From positions 1 through 38,309 of the forward strand of contig BJFW01000010.1 of assembly GCA_014190095.1 (NCBI GenBank): a stretch of DNA of 38,309 nucleotides, read 5' to 3'. The position numbers and the translations under genes are program-made. Shown here piece by piece: positions 32,040 to 37,369 of the stretch (its first letter is position 1; every line of letters begins with the position of its first letter). The notes beneath the pieces are model-generated. The model saw nothing but the letters and a program-made list of their open reading frames with translations. It was not told where the DNA came from and did no database searches. This DNA is from Actinomycetes bacterium (GTDB taxonomy: Bacteria; Actinomycetota; Acidimicrobiia; Acidimicrobiales; Ilumatobacteraceae).

Positions 32040-33455
32040 TTGAAAGAGGTGGTGCGTACGGCTGAGCAATTTGATCTTGTGGTCATTGGTGGCGGCCCTG
32101 GTGGCTACGCATCTGCTTTCTATGCAGCCTCTGCGGGCATGACTGTTGCGCTGATTGAGCGCGAGGTCATTGGCGGCACATGCTTGAACCGTGGATGTAT
32201 TCCGGCGAAGGCATTCCTTGAGACTGCAGCAGCGAATCGGCACGTGCAACACGCTGGTGATTTTGGAATTAATGCAACAGTAAACGGAATCGATTTTGGT
32301 GTTGCTCAAACCCGAAAGCAGACCATTGTGAATGGTTTGGTTAAAGGATTGACGGGTTTAACTAAGACAAAGAAAGTTACGTACTTGTTGGGTACGGGTT
32401 CACTCGGTCCGAACAAAACAGTGACTGTGCAGTTGGCTGACGGAAGCACGCAGCAACTTCAAGGTAAGAACATTGTGATTGCAGCAGGTTCAACTCCGCG
32501 AACGATTCCTGGGTTCACGCCAGGCGGTCCAATCATGACTTCTGATGAAGTGTTGATGCTGAGCAAGATTCCACAGCGCATTGCAGTGATCGGCGGTGGC
32601 GCAATTGGTTGTGAGTTTGCCTCGACATTTGCCGACCTTGGCTCGCAAGTAACCATTCTTGAAGGACTACCAAAAATTTTGCCTGGACTTGACCCCGACT
32701 TGGCGTTCGTTGTGGAGAAGAGTTTCAAGAAAAAGAACATTGAAATTCGAACTGGTGTGAAAGTAAACGGTCACGAGCCAACAGGCACTGGTACGACTGT
32801 GTTGTTTGGTGAAGGCGAACGACTGGAAGTTGACGCGGTAGTGGTTTCGGTTGGGCGTAAACCATTTACTGAATTGCTTGGACTTGCAGGAACTGCGGTG
32901 CACGTAAGTGACCGTGGGTTTATTGATGTTGACGGGTATTGCCAAACTGGCGAACCAGGTGTGTATGCCGTTGGCGACATTGTGAACACTCCGCAACTTG
33001 CACACGTTGCATATTCAGAAGCAATCGTTGCCGTGAAGCACATGCGCGGTGAAGTGGTGTACCCAGTGATGTATGACCGAGTTCCATGGGCAATTTATTG
33101 CCATCCTGAAGTTGCGTGGGCTGGACCTTCTGAAGAGGCAGCAATTGCTGCAGGGCACGATGTTGTGGTTGCGAAGCACGCATTCCGTTCAAACAGTCGC
33201 GCAATGATTCTTGGCGAAACCGACGGCTTAGTGAAAATCATCGCGAAAAAGAACGCTGATGGAACTCCTGGCCAAGTACTTGGTGTGCACATGGTTGGTC
33301 CGTGGGTTACCGAACAGTTGTCGGGTGGCTACCTGGCGGTGAACTGGGAAGCAACCGTGGATGAAATTGCAGAATTCATTCAGCCGCACCCGTCGCTTTC
33401 TGAAACATTTGGAGAAACAGTGCTGTCACTTACAGGCCGCACCATTAACGGTTAA
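32040..33455 (+). CDS. lpdA: Dihydrolipoyl dehydrogenase (E3)
   Basis: DLVVIGGGPGGYASAFYAASAG, GGTCLNRGCIPAKAFLETA, GVYAVGDIVNTPQLAHVAYSEA, HPHPSLSET-type C-terminus. Start may be the GTG at 32052. Confidence 0.93.
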   Translation: MKEVVRTAEQFDLVVIGGGPGGYASAFYAASAGMTVALIEREVIGGTCLNRGCIPAKAFLETAAANRHVQHAGDFGINATVNGIDFGVAQTRKQTIVNGLVKGLTGLTKTKKVTYLLGTGSLGPNKTVTVQLADGSTQQLQGKNIVIAAGSTPRTIPGFTPGGPIMTSDEVLMLSKIPQRIAVIGGGAIGCEFASTFADLGSQVTILEGLPKILPGLDPDLAFVVEKSFKKKNIEIRTGVKVNGHEPTGTGTTVLFGEGERLEVDAVVVSVGRKPFTELLGLAGTAVHVSDRGFIDVDGYCQTGEPGVYAVGDIVNTPQLAHVAYSEAIVAVKHMRGEVVYPVMYDRVPWAIYCHPEVAWAGPSEEAAIAAGHDVVVAKHAFRSNSRAMILGETDGLVKIIAKKNADGTPGQVLGVHMVGPWVTEQLSGGYLAVNWEATVDEIAEFIQPHPSLSETFGETVLSLTGRTING

Positions 33456-33476: not shown

Positions 33477-34865
33477 ATGGCTGAGATCACACTTCCACAA
33501 CTTGGAGAAACGGTCACCGAAGGAACGATTACGCGTTGGTTCAAAAAAGTTGGCGACACCATTGCTGCCGACGAGCCATTGTTCGAAGTTTCTACTGACA
33601 AAGTTGATACCGAAGTGCCTTCGCCAATTGCAGGAACACTCACCGAAATTCGCGTTGCAGAAGGCGAGACAGTTGCAGTCGGAACTGTGATTGCGGTGGT
33701 GGGTGGAGCAGGCGCTTCACCTGCACCTGCACCAGCACCGGTTGAGGCTCCTGCACCGGTTGCGGCTCCTGCGCCGGCTCCAGCACCTGCGCCGGCTCCA
33801 GCACCTACGCCAGTTGCGACTCCTGCGCCAACTCCGGTTGCAACTCCTGCACCTGCTCAAGTTGCGCAATCAAACAAGTTGCTTTCGCCAGTTGTACGTC
33901 GATTGGTAAACGATCACGGCATCAACATTGATGCTTTGCAAGGTACTGGTCCTGGTGGTCGCATCACTCGCGAAGACGTACTCGACTACATCGATCGCAA
34001 TGGATTGGCTGCGCAACCTGCAGCGACAGTAGTTGCTCCAGCACCAGCGCCAGCGCCAGTTGTGACACCTGCTCCCGCACCAGTTGCAGCACCTGCACCT
34101 GCGCCAACACCGGCACCCGCCGCTGCACCTCGTCCAACTTCAACTCTTGGTGATCGCGAACAAGTAATTCCGTTGTCAAAAATTCGCAGACTTACTGGCT
34201 CGCACATGGTGATGTCGCTTGAAACCAGTCCTCACTCATTCACCGTTGTTGAAGTTGACTACGCAAACGTCGACAAAACGCGCAGCGCAGTAAAGGAATC
34301 GTGGAAAACGAGCGAAGGTTTCAGCCTGACGTACTTGCCGTTTATCAGTCGCGCAGTCGTCGATGCCCTTGCCGAGTTCCCACACTTGAACGCCAGCATT
34401 GAAGGCGACAATTTGATTGTGCATAGCTATGTAGACCTCGGTATTGCGGTTGACCTTGACTATGCAGGACTATTGGTGCCGGTTGTGCGTAGCGCCGATG
34501 CAAAGCGCTTGCGCGCTATTGCTCGCGAGATTCACGATCTTGCATCGCGTGCACGTGGGCGAAAACTTTCACCAGATGAAATCACTGGCGGAACATTCAC
34601 TTTGTCAAATAATGGTTCGGCTGGTGCGCTCATTGCAATGCCAATTATCAATCAACCACAAGTTGCCATTTTGTCGACCGATGCAATTGTGCGCAAGCCA
34701 GTAGTTGTAGCCATGCCAGACGGGAGCGAAAGCATTGCAATTCATCCGATGGGTCACTTGTCAATGTCGTGGGATCATCGTGCATTTGACGGTGCATACG
34801 CAGGCCGCTTCCTTTCTCGTGTGAAGCAGATTCTTGAAACACAGGACTGGTCAGCCGAGCTGTAA
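33477..34865 (+). CDS. 2-oxo acid dehydrogenase E2 (dihydrolipoamide acyltransferase)
   Basis: One lipoyl domain (FEVSTDKVDTEVPSP), PSBD (SPVVRRLVNDHGINIDALQGTGPGGRITREDV), catalytic SWDHRAFDGAYAGRFL; two Ala/Pro linkers. Confidence 0.95.
   Translation: MAEITLPQLGETVTEGTITRWFKKVGDTIAADEPLFEVSTDKVDTEVPSPIAGTLTEIRVAEGETVAVGTVIAVVGGAGASPAPAPAPVEAPAPVAAPAPAPAPAPAPAPTPVATPAPTPVATPAPAQVAQSNKLLSPVVRRLVNDHGINIDALQGTGPGGRITREDVLDYIDRNGLAAQPAATVVAPAPAPAPVVTPAPAPVAAPAPAPTPAPAAAPRPTSTLGDREQVIPLSKIRRLTGSHMVMSLETSPHSFTVVEVDYANVDKTRSAVKESWKTSEGFSLTYLPFISRAVVDALAEFPHLNASIEGDNLIVHSYVDLGIAVDLDYAGLLVPVVRSADAKRLRAIAREIHDLASRARGRKLSPDEITGGTFTLSNNGSAGALIAMPIINQPQVAILSTDAIVRKPVVVAMPDGSESIAIHPMGHLSMSWDHRAFDGAYAGRFLSRVKQILETQDWSAEL
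33717..33869 (+). repeat. Low-complexity Ala-Pro linker coding repeat 1
   Basis: Encodes SPAPAPAPVEAPAPVAAPAPAPAPAPAPAPTPVATPAPTPVATPAPAQVA, between the lipoyl domain and PSBD. Confidence 0.9.
34014..34142 (+). repeat. Low-complexity Ala-Pro linker coding repeat 2
   Basis: Encodes QPAATVVAPAPAPAPVVTPAPAPVAAPAPAPTPAPAAAPRPTS, between PSBD and the catalytic domain. Confidence 0.9.
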
Positions 34866-34886: not shown

Positions 34887-36482
34887 ATGAGCACACCCAC
34901 TTCGCCACTTCATGTGAGATGGCTAGGCCGTGTTCCATACTCCGAAGCGCTGGCATTGCAACAGGCCATTTTTGAGCATGGCGTCGATCAGCATTTGTTG
35001 CTTCTCGAGCATCAGCATGTGTTTACCTACGGTCAGCAAGCCAACCTTGAGCAAAATCTGAAATGCAATCCAGATGAAGTTGGAGCAGACCTTGTTTCCG
35101 TTCATCGTGGTGGAGACATCACCTATCACGGACCAGGACAATTGGTTGGTTATCCGTTGCTGAACCTATTGGCAAAACACGGAGACAGCGGTCCTGCAGA
35201 TACTGCTGCATACATCCACGACGTAGAGCAATTAGTTATCGACACTCTGAACGAGCTTGGTTTATCAAATGCAAGTCGAAAAACTGGGTTTCCTGGCGTA
35301 TGGCTAGATGCAGAGATTGCGCAAGCACGCAAGATTTGCGCAATCGGTGTTCGTGTTGCGCGAGGAGCGAGTGAGCGACGAACCATGCATGGTTTTGCGC
35401 TCAACGTAAGCACCGATTTGAGTTTTATGCGCGAGCACATTGTTCCTTGTGGCATAGCGGATTATGCAGTGACATCGCTTGCTGAAGAGGGAATTGCCGC
35501 AACGATGTTTGACGTAGTCAACGTTGTCAGCAAACTTGCCGCCAAGAAGTGGGGAAATGAAAACTCCACGCGATACGACGTTGCTTGGGCTCATCAACCA
35601 GAACGTGATGGACTCAGTATTTCCGTGCGTAAACCCGATTGGATTCGCCCGCATGTGAACCACACCAGCGAAGTGCTACTCACAAAGAAAACGCTTCGTG
35701 ACCTGAATTTGGTGACGGTGTGCGAAGAGGCCGGTTGCCCGAACTTGAGTGAATGTTGGAAAGACGGCACCGCAACGTTCATGGTGCTGGGCGATCGATG
35801 CACGCGAGCATGTGGATTTTGTCTGATTGATACGCGTAAACCACTTGAGCCAGATGCGAATGAACCAGCACGAGTTGCTGAAGCAGTGAAGCGTATGGGT
35901 CTGGAGTTTGCCGTGCTCACCATGGTTGCTCGAGATGATTTAGCTGACGGTGGAATGCAACACGTTGCCAGCACGATTCGTGCGATTCGTAATGAAAACC
36001 CCGACGCACAAGTTGAAGCATTGATTTCAGATGCCAAGGGAACCGATGCGTTGGATGCTGTGTTGAACGAGCGTCCAGATGTGTTGAATCACAACATAGA
36101 AACTGTTGCTCGACTGCAGCGCATGGTGCGGCCTTCTGCTGGATATGCACGCAGCCTGTCGGTGCTCGCTCGCTCTCGTGCAGTGGGGTTGACCACAAAG
36201 TCTGGGTTCATGCTTGGTCTTGGTGAAACTCGCGATGAAGTAGAGGCAACACTGATTGATCTTGCAAGCGTGGGGGTTAACATCGTGACGATCGGACAGT
36301 ACTTGCGACCGAGCGCACAGCACCTTCCAGTGGTGCGCTATCCCGAACCATCTGAATTTAAGCACTACAAGACATTTGGTGAACGACTTGGCATCAACCA
36401 CGTTGAGTCAAGTCCGCTTACTCGTTCGAGTTATCACGCAAAAGACGCACATCGAAATTCATCCCCACTACTTCACGTGTAA
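34887..36482 (+). CDS. lipB-lipA: Fused octanoyltransferase-lipoyl synthase (LipB-LipA)
   Basis: N-terminal LipB: LLLEHQHVFTYGQ, HRGGDITYHGPGQLVGYPLL, KICAIGVR, TMHGFALNV, HIVPCGI. C-terminal LipA: CEEAGCPNLSECW, CTRACGFCLIDT, LNHNIETV, GLTTKSGFMLGLGE, QYLRPSAQHLPV, SPLTRSSYHA. One uninterrupted ORF. Confidence 0.96.
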   Translation: MSTPTSPLHVRWLGRVPYSEALALQQAIFEHGVDQHLLLLEHQHVFTYGQQANLEQNLKCNPDEVGADLVSVHRGGDITYHGPGQLVGYPLLNLLAKHGDSGPADTAAYIHDVEQLVIDTLNELGLSNASRKTGFPGVWLDAEIAQARKICAIGVRVARGASERRTMHGFALNVSTDLSFMREHIVPCGIADYAVTSLAEEGIAATMFDVVNVVSKLAAKKWGNENSTRYDVAWAHQPERDGLSISVRKPDWIRPHVNHTSEVLLTKKTLRDLNLVTVCEEAGCPNLSECWKDGTATFMVLGDRCTRACGFCLIDTRKPLEPDANEPARVAEAVKRMGLEFAVLTMVARDDLADGGMQHVASTIRAIRNENPDAQVEALISDAKGTDALDAVLNERPDVLNHNIETVARLQRMVRPSAGYARSLSVLARSRAVGLTTKSGFMLGLGETRDEVEATLIDLASVGVNIVTIGQYLRPSAQHLPVVRYPEPSEFKHYKTFGERLGINHVESSPLTRSSYHAKDAHRNSSPLLHV

Positions 36483-36490
36483 AGGCAAAT

Positions 36491-37369
36491 ATGACAACGA
36501 CAACTCTTCGCGAAATTGCTGGCACTATTCAGTCACAGCGCACGGTTGAAGGCGGTGGGTTCACCGTTCGACGCCCGTTTCCGACTGCGCAACTAGATCA
36601 GATCGACCCATTTTTGCTACTCGATGAAATGGGGCCAGCAGATTATGCACCAGGCAAAGCAGTTGGCGCGCCAAGCCATCCGCATCGTGGATTCGAAACC
36701 GTGACATACATGTTGTCGGGCAGCATGGTGCACGAAGACTCAACCGGCACCAAAGCGGTGATCAAAAAAGGTGGAGTGCAGTGGATGACTGCAGGATCCG
36801 GAGTTATCCATAGCGAGTTGCCTACTGATGACATGATGAAACTCGGTGGCCGAATGCACGGCTTTCAGTTGTGGGTGAATTTGCCAGCCGCAAAGAAAAT
36901 GATTGATCCTCGTTATCAGGGTTACGAAGCAGAAGAAATGGCCACTGTACATTTGGCAAAGGGTGGACACATTCGAGTGGTTGCCGGGGTGGTGCATGGT
37001 GCGAAGGGTCCTGTTGAGACCACGTCGCCAATGACGTATGCACACGCCGTGTTAGAAGTTGGCGATGTTGTGGAATGGCTGCCAGAAGAAGGACATACCG
37101 CCCTCATTCATGTCTTTGACGGCGAAGCACGTGTGAATGAGTCAACGAGTGTTTCAGGCGAAATGGTGGTGATGCAGAGATCTGCCGGTTTGGTGCGGGT
37201 TGAAGCAACTACAACCACTACTCAAATTCTGATTCTGGGCGGCCAGCCACTCGGTGAGCCTATGGTTCGCTATGGTCCTTTCGTCATGAATACGAAGCAA
37301 GAGATCATTACTGCCGTTGAAGAATACAACGATGGCAAGTTGGTGAAGGTGGGAAGGAACAGCCTGTGA
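36491..37369 (+). CDS. Pirin family protein
   Basis: VRRPFPTAQLDQIDPFLLLDEMGPADYAPGKAVGAPSHPHRGFETVTYMLSG; MTAGSGVIHSE. Confidence 0.95.
   Translation: MTTTTLREIAGTIQSQRTVEGGGFTVRRPFPTAQLDQIDPFLLLDEMGPADYAPGKAVGAPSHPHRGFETVTYMLSGSMVHEDSTGTKAVIKKGGVQWMTAGSGVIHSELPTDDMMKLGGRMHGFQLWVNLPAAKKMIDPRYQGYEAEEMATVHLAKGGHIRVVAGVVHGAKGPVETTSPMTYAHAVLEVGDVVEWLPEEGHTALIHVFDGEARVNESTSVSGEMVVMQRSAGLVRVEATTTTTQILILGGQPLGEPMVRYGPFVMNTKQEIITAVEEYNDGKLVKVGRNSL

Follow-up and report, generated by a model that had tools for sequence, protein, structure and literature searches.

A fused lipB-lipA gene conserved across the Acidimicrobiia, probably encoding a bifunctional lipoyl-cofactor synthase

The analysed window is a stretch of 38,309 nt from an Ilumatobacteraceae genome (assembly GCA_014190095.1, contig BJFW01000010.1). 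Towards its end, one open reading frame runs from an ATG to a TAA with zero internal stops and joins the sequences of two lipoate-biosynthesis enzymes, the octanoyltransferase LipB and the lipoyl synthase LipA. The original prediction had placed this gene directly after lpd and the E2 gene, and both do lie immediately upstream, with 21 nt between the end of the E2 gene and the start of the fused gene. The features are as follows.

32040..33455, + strand: lpd, dihydrolipoyl dehydrogenase (E3)
33477..34865, + strand: E2, SucB_Actino-like, with one lipoyl domain, an E3-binding domain and an acyltransferase; immediate upstream neighbour and presumed substrate
34887..36482, + strand: the fused lipB-lipA gene (531 aa), with orthologous fusions at 135 loci
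34887..35549, + strand: LipB octanoyltransferase domain, residues 1-221, with the RGG motif at residues 74-76
35331-35333, + strand: LipB catalytic Lys149, in the LipB domain
35448-35450, + strand: LipB catalytic Cys188, in the LipB domain
35562..35624, + strand: interdomain linker, residues 226-246, 21 aa, without either of the two motifs that most relatives have
35625..36455, + strand: LipA lipoyl synthase domain, residues 247-523
35721..35756, + strand: LipA auxiliary-cluster motif CX4CX5C (C279, C284, C290)
35799..35822, + strand: LipA radical-SAM motif CX3CX2C (C305, C309, C312)
36423..36434, + strand: LipA RSSY motif, residues 513-516, serine ligand of the auxiliary cluster
36491-37369: pirin gene, next downstream of the fused gene

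Pfam divides the protein into LplA-B_cat (18-214), a partial LIAS_N (246-284) and Radical_SAM (300-456), and the LplA/B catalytic domain PF21948 scores 115 bits (cut-off 27). The LipB half matches NCBIfam PRK14345 over residues 4-221 (168 bits, cut-off 155), and the LipA half matches TIGR00510 over residues 244-522 (343.5 bits, cut-off 310). The LipA half also covers PRK05481 nearly end to end, residues 249-523 aligning with profile positions 1-278 of 286. In an alignment of 32 sequences, K149, C188 and the RGG motif of LipB are invariant, as are CX4CX5C, CX3CX2C and RSSY of LipA. Here, the Cys/Lys dyad is defined as for Lys142/Cys176 of M. tuberculosis LipB (PMC9307952), and the roles of the cluster ligands, including the RSSY serine on the auxiliary cluster, follow PMC12246082. 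These matches and residues bear out the description of a single ORF with complete LipB and LipA, both cysteine clusters and the serine motif. In contrast, the description of the LipA N-terminus as abbreviated proved misleading, as the core is full length against the family models and the sequence lost in the window's clade belongs to the linker. In the window's genus, a 94% identical gene (L043) has a TAA after ...KDAHRN that removes the last C-terminal residues and leaves all motifs in place.

Fold comparison identified M. tuberculosis LipA 5exi/5exk (51% identity) and LipB 1w66 (41%) as the closest solved structures, with 2qhs as a further match for the LipB half. AlphaFold2 models of the window protein and of a long-linker relative (557 aa) reached pTM values of 0.87 and 0.88, respectively; in both, the domains are confident and the linker is of low confidence. 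The pTM values suggest, without proving it, that the two domains may take up a defined mutual arrangement.

In genome searches, 57 of 61 relatives and 116 of 120 members of the class gave a match to the protein; the named relatives are Acidimicrobiales, Ilumatobacteraceae and Ferrimicrobium, so that the class is Acidimicrobiia. Since the 'open frame' column of the search tool can span stops, the DNA of the loci was read directly. A single stop-free frame covering LipB and LipA was found at 97 loci in a first pass and at 38 in a second, giving 135 loci from about 92 genomes plus named contigs. The taxonomic mapping of two-domain proteins that the original prediction had proposed thus places the fusion in 51 of the 54 sampled Acidimicrobiia families, and neither a stop nor a frameshift, either of which would have contradicted that prediction, lies between the domains at any of the 135 loci. 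Of the three remaining families, one is cut by a contig end (f51) and two gave no match (f10 and f54). Judged from these sequences, the fusion is real and old, because it is present in every family that can be read across the joint. The adjacency of E2 to the fused gene is likewise conserved throughout the class. One 5-kb contig (L113, G107:C83) carries a separate lipB-lipA pair with an ATGA overlap, in a genome that also has the fused gene; the pair may be a contaminant or a transferred copy.

The same reading of the DNA found no lipA-lipB fusion at 20 loci from other Actinomycetota classes, in agreement with the earlier statement that LipB and LipA are normally separate. At 14 of them the two enzymes lie in different frames or are split by stops, and at the other 6 no LipB occurs on the LipA strand within the fetched stretch. 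Several apparent fusions were discarded in this way: in G276, G203, G239, G255, G179, G192, G297, G307 and G211 the frames differ or stops intervene, G267 and G254 have no LipB on the same strand of the fetched stretch, and a Bipolaricaulota locus (L071) that looked fused at first resolves into two frames. Beyond Actinomycetota, the sample consists of plasmid-collection records and one other contig, and independent fusions may exist there. Among the loci of the other Actinomycetota classes, starts that overlap or nearly overlap occur (L084/L087, for instance, show a GTGA overlap), and several loci have the gene order E2, lipB, lipA. Together, these features make this the likely ancestral arrangement. 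At one locus (L082; G203, family f71; 1045-2857), lipB and lipA share a frame with one stop codon between them, which possibly pictures the state before fusion.

In the LipB tree, a branch supported at 99/96 separates all fused sequences from the rest. The LipA tree alone recovers no single fused clade, as the fused sequences are interrupted by a long-branched separate family (f68), although a single fused LipA clade is compatible with the data (p-AU 0.377). The f68 sequences (L092, L095 and L097), from another Actinomycetota class, carry a LipA N-terminal extension of about 100 residues that shows no match to LipB; their N-terminus reads PRWV... in place of KPxW. The most economical reading is a single fusion at the base of Acidimicrobiia followed by vertical descent. 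In this account, a single loss of the stop codon that separated the neighbours lipB and lipA, within a cluster ordered lpd-E2-lipB-lipA, would have created the gene.

The linker varies widely in length: it measures 21 aa in the window's clade, and its relatives have a median of 48 aa (range 14-167). Most relatives carry two motifs, namely DLxxF[ST]R(GxG) right behind the last strand of LipB and (P)VRLLGRLAEAGV, which lies about 10 residues ahead of the LipA anchor RKPEW, with a spacer of ~5 to >100 residues between them (an example is L040:6001-7671). Of 100 non-redundant linkers, 45 contain the strict form DLxxF[STA]R and 62 contain RLxxAG; the values expected per shuffled linker are 0.0001 and 0.009, respectively. 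When the variants of deeper lineages (AFTRG and SQFTP) are counted, the first motif is present in 61 of 99 lineages and missing in 38; none of the 11 lineages whose linkers are 26 aa or shorter, the window's clade included, has it, and its distribution on the tree needs about 15 changes. Compared with a long-linker sister species, the window's clade shows an alignment gap of ~26 columns that takes out both motifs. DLxxF[ST]R was not seen in the LipB C-termini or LipA N-termini of the outgroup.

Fixed short motifs with variable spacing are typical of docking motifs, and on these grounds the two linker motifs may have such a character. They could dock the two halves on each other or catch the lipoyl domain, as in a processive lipoylation machine, with short-linker lineages such as the window's having put a direct rigid join in its place; we offer this tentatively and regard it as rather unlikely. 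It is much harder to accept that the linker segment is a PSBD-like module for binding E3/E1, borrowed from E2 and docking the enzyme on the dehydrogenase complex. By eye, DLSxFSRGEGPG and PVRLLGRLAEAGV superficially resemble PSBD helices. However, hhalign of the linker against E2 PSBD alignments gave a probability of 0.6% over 4 columns, and Pfam searches of the linker segments with E up to 10 returned just two weak, unrelated matches, so that this origin appears highly unlikely.

An error of sequencing or assembly that deleted a stop codon could explain the fusion away, and the window's genome is indeed a draft of 146 contigs. However, the identical fusion at 135 loci, among them loci in single-contig genomes (G073, G033, G062, G063 and G038), makes such an artefact exceedingly improbable. 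Alternatively, the fusion might exist on paper only, with LipA also or mainly made separately from an internal start near the domain boundary. In many relatives with long linkers, a GTG stands in frame ~19-20 codons ahead of the LipA anchor, close to the position where separate lipA genes start; its Shine-Dalgarno (SD)-like score is strong (-7 to -15 kcal/mol), and GTG is somewhat enriched at this valine (24 of 38 versus 15 expected). The resemblance of glycine and glutamate codons to the SD sequence accounts for these strong scores. At the would-be ribosome-binding site, however, GAG is under-used (22/65 versus 33.5 expected), GGA/GGG are at expectation (44/120 versus 41.7), and, at the would-be start, the valine codon is often GTA, GTC or GTT. 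It is therefore the peptide that is conserved and not a ribosome-binding site, and the codon-choice test finds no hidden site in the conserved GEGPGE codons. The window's clade lacks this segment altogether, and its sole in-frame start in that region, GTG 35625, has a score of -3.0, close to the background median of -2.9. As a strong SD is likewise missing at the ATG of the fused gene itself, SD strength is indecisive on internal starts. The original prediction had pointed to separate products from internal initiation near the boundary as the outcome that would overturn it; the sequences gave no indication that an internal start is under selection, and we consider separate production of LipA quite improbable.

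A whole-genome search found that the fused LipA is the sole LipA of the window's genome. The lipoyl substrates encoded there are the adjoining E2 and one GcvH, while two other biotin/lipoyl matches above the cut-off are carboxylase parts. With this only LipA and with E2 and GcvH as targets, the fusion must provide LipA activity if the pathway runs. The genome also has a second gene of the LplA/B fold (L122, G000:C3:39174-39635), a ~250-aa open frame with weak matches only, to lipoate ligases; it may encode a salvage ligase or another acyl transferase.

Combined, the fusion and its distribution, the intact catalytic residues and the gene order make it very probable that the protein is a bifunctional lipoyl-cofactor synthase derived from one ancient lipB/lipA fusion by vertical descent, with proximity and equal supply as the likely benefit; both activities, the single origin and the benefit are what we infer here. 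The LipB half would take octanoyl from octanoyl-ACP onto Cys188 without ATP and pass it to the lipoyl-domain lysine of the E2 encoded next door, or of GcvH. The LipA half would then use two [4Fe-4S] clusters to insert sulfur at C6 and C8 of this octanoyl chain while it is still bound to the protein. Since the intermediate would stay on the lipoyl domain, the 'channelling' raised in the original prediction could mean at most the hand-over of a small protein domain and would involve no free metabolite. Fusion by itself need not yield channelling, according to a gene-fusion survey (PMC4921024). A modest reading of the benefit is the likely one, namely proximity and a 1:1 supply of two enzymes that act in succession on a single protein substrate. 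Neighbouring genes may instead have been joined neutrally, without kinetic advantage, and kept joined since re-splitting is hard. A single origin with subsequent vertical inheritance would fit this, as would an interdomain length ranging from 14 to 167 aa and the absence of the first motif in 38 of 99 lineages. However, apart from the additional contig L113 (5 kb), no re-split gene was found among the intact loci, and conservation of the linker motif at the protein level extends to 61 of 99 lineages. Neutral fixation therefore seems to us the less probable account, yet one to be taken seriously.

Previous knowledge covers LipB and LipA, the adjacency of the two and a fusion of LplA with LipA. 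No description of a LipB-LipA fusion was found in the openly accessible literature; the main text of the large metabolic gene-fusion survey PMC4921024 contains no lipoyl terms, and PMC10332631, whose main text discusses Lpl(AB) domain fusions, does not name LipB-LipA in any of its passages on fusion. Automatic UniProt records may include the fusion already. A profile search with the fused protein surfaced no dedicated NCBIfam model, and because no NCBIfam model spans both halves, annotation likely names the protein for one activity only. As a natural single-chain LipB-LipA, it would allow proximity effects between consecutive steps on a protein-bound substrate to be measured, and the fusion is a candidate molecular marker for the class Acidimicrobiia.

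In comparison with known systems, the separate adjacent lipB and lipA of other Actinomycetota (with M. tuberculosis enzymes solved as 1W66 and 5EXI) belong to the same enzyme families and share the same gene order, with identities to the fused halves of 41% (1W66, LipB) and 51% (5EXI, LipA) and, in several lineages, E2 upstream as at the fused locus. In contrast to the fusion, they yield two proteins, with stops, overlapping starts or different frames between the genes. LipS1/LipS2 with sLpl(AB) (PMC10332631) share the overall task of assembling lipoate on proteins, but LipS1/LipS2 form a two-protein synthase unrelated to the LipB-LipA fusion. The bifunctional lipoate--protein ligase/lipoyl synthase of NCBIfam NF053790 has, like the fusion described here, an enzyme of the LplA/LipB superfamily at its N-terminus and LipA at its C-terminus. 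The fused protein scores 345.7 bits against this model (cut-off 800), its LipA half alone being matched, and the two designs differ in the N-terminal half, which is the ATP-dependent ligase LplA in NF053790 and LipB in the Acidimicrobiia.
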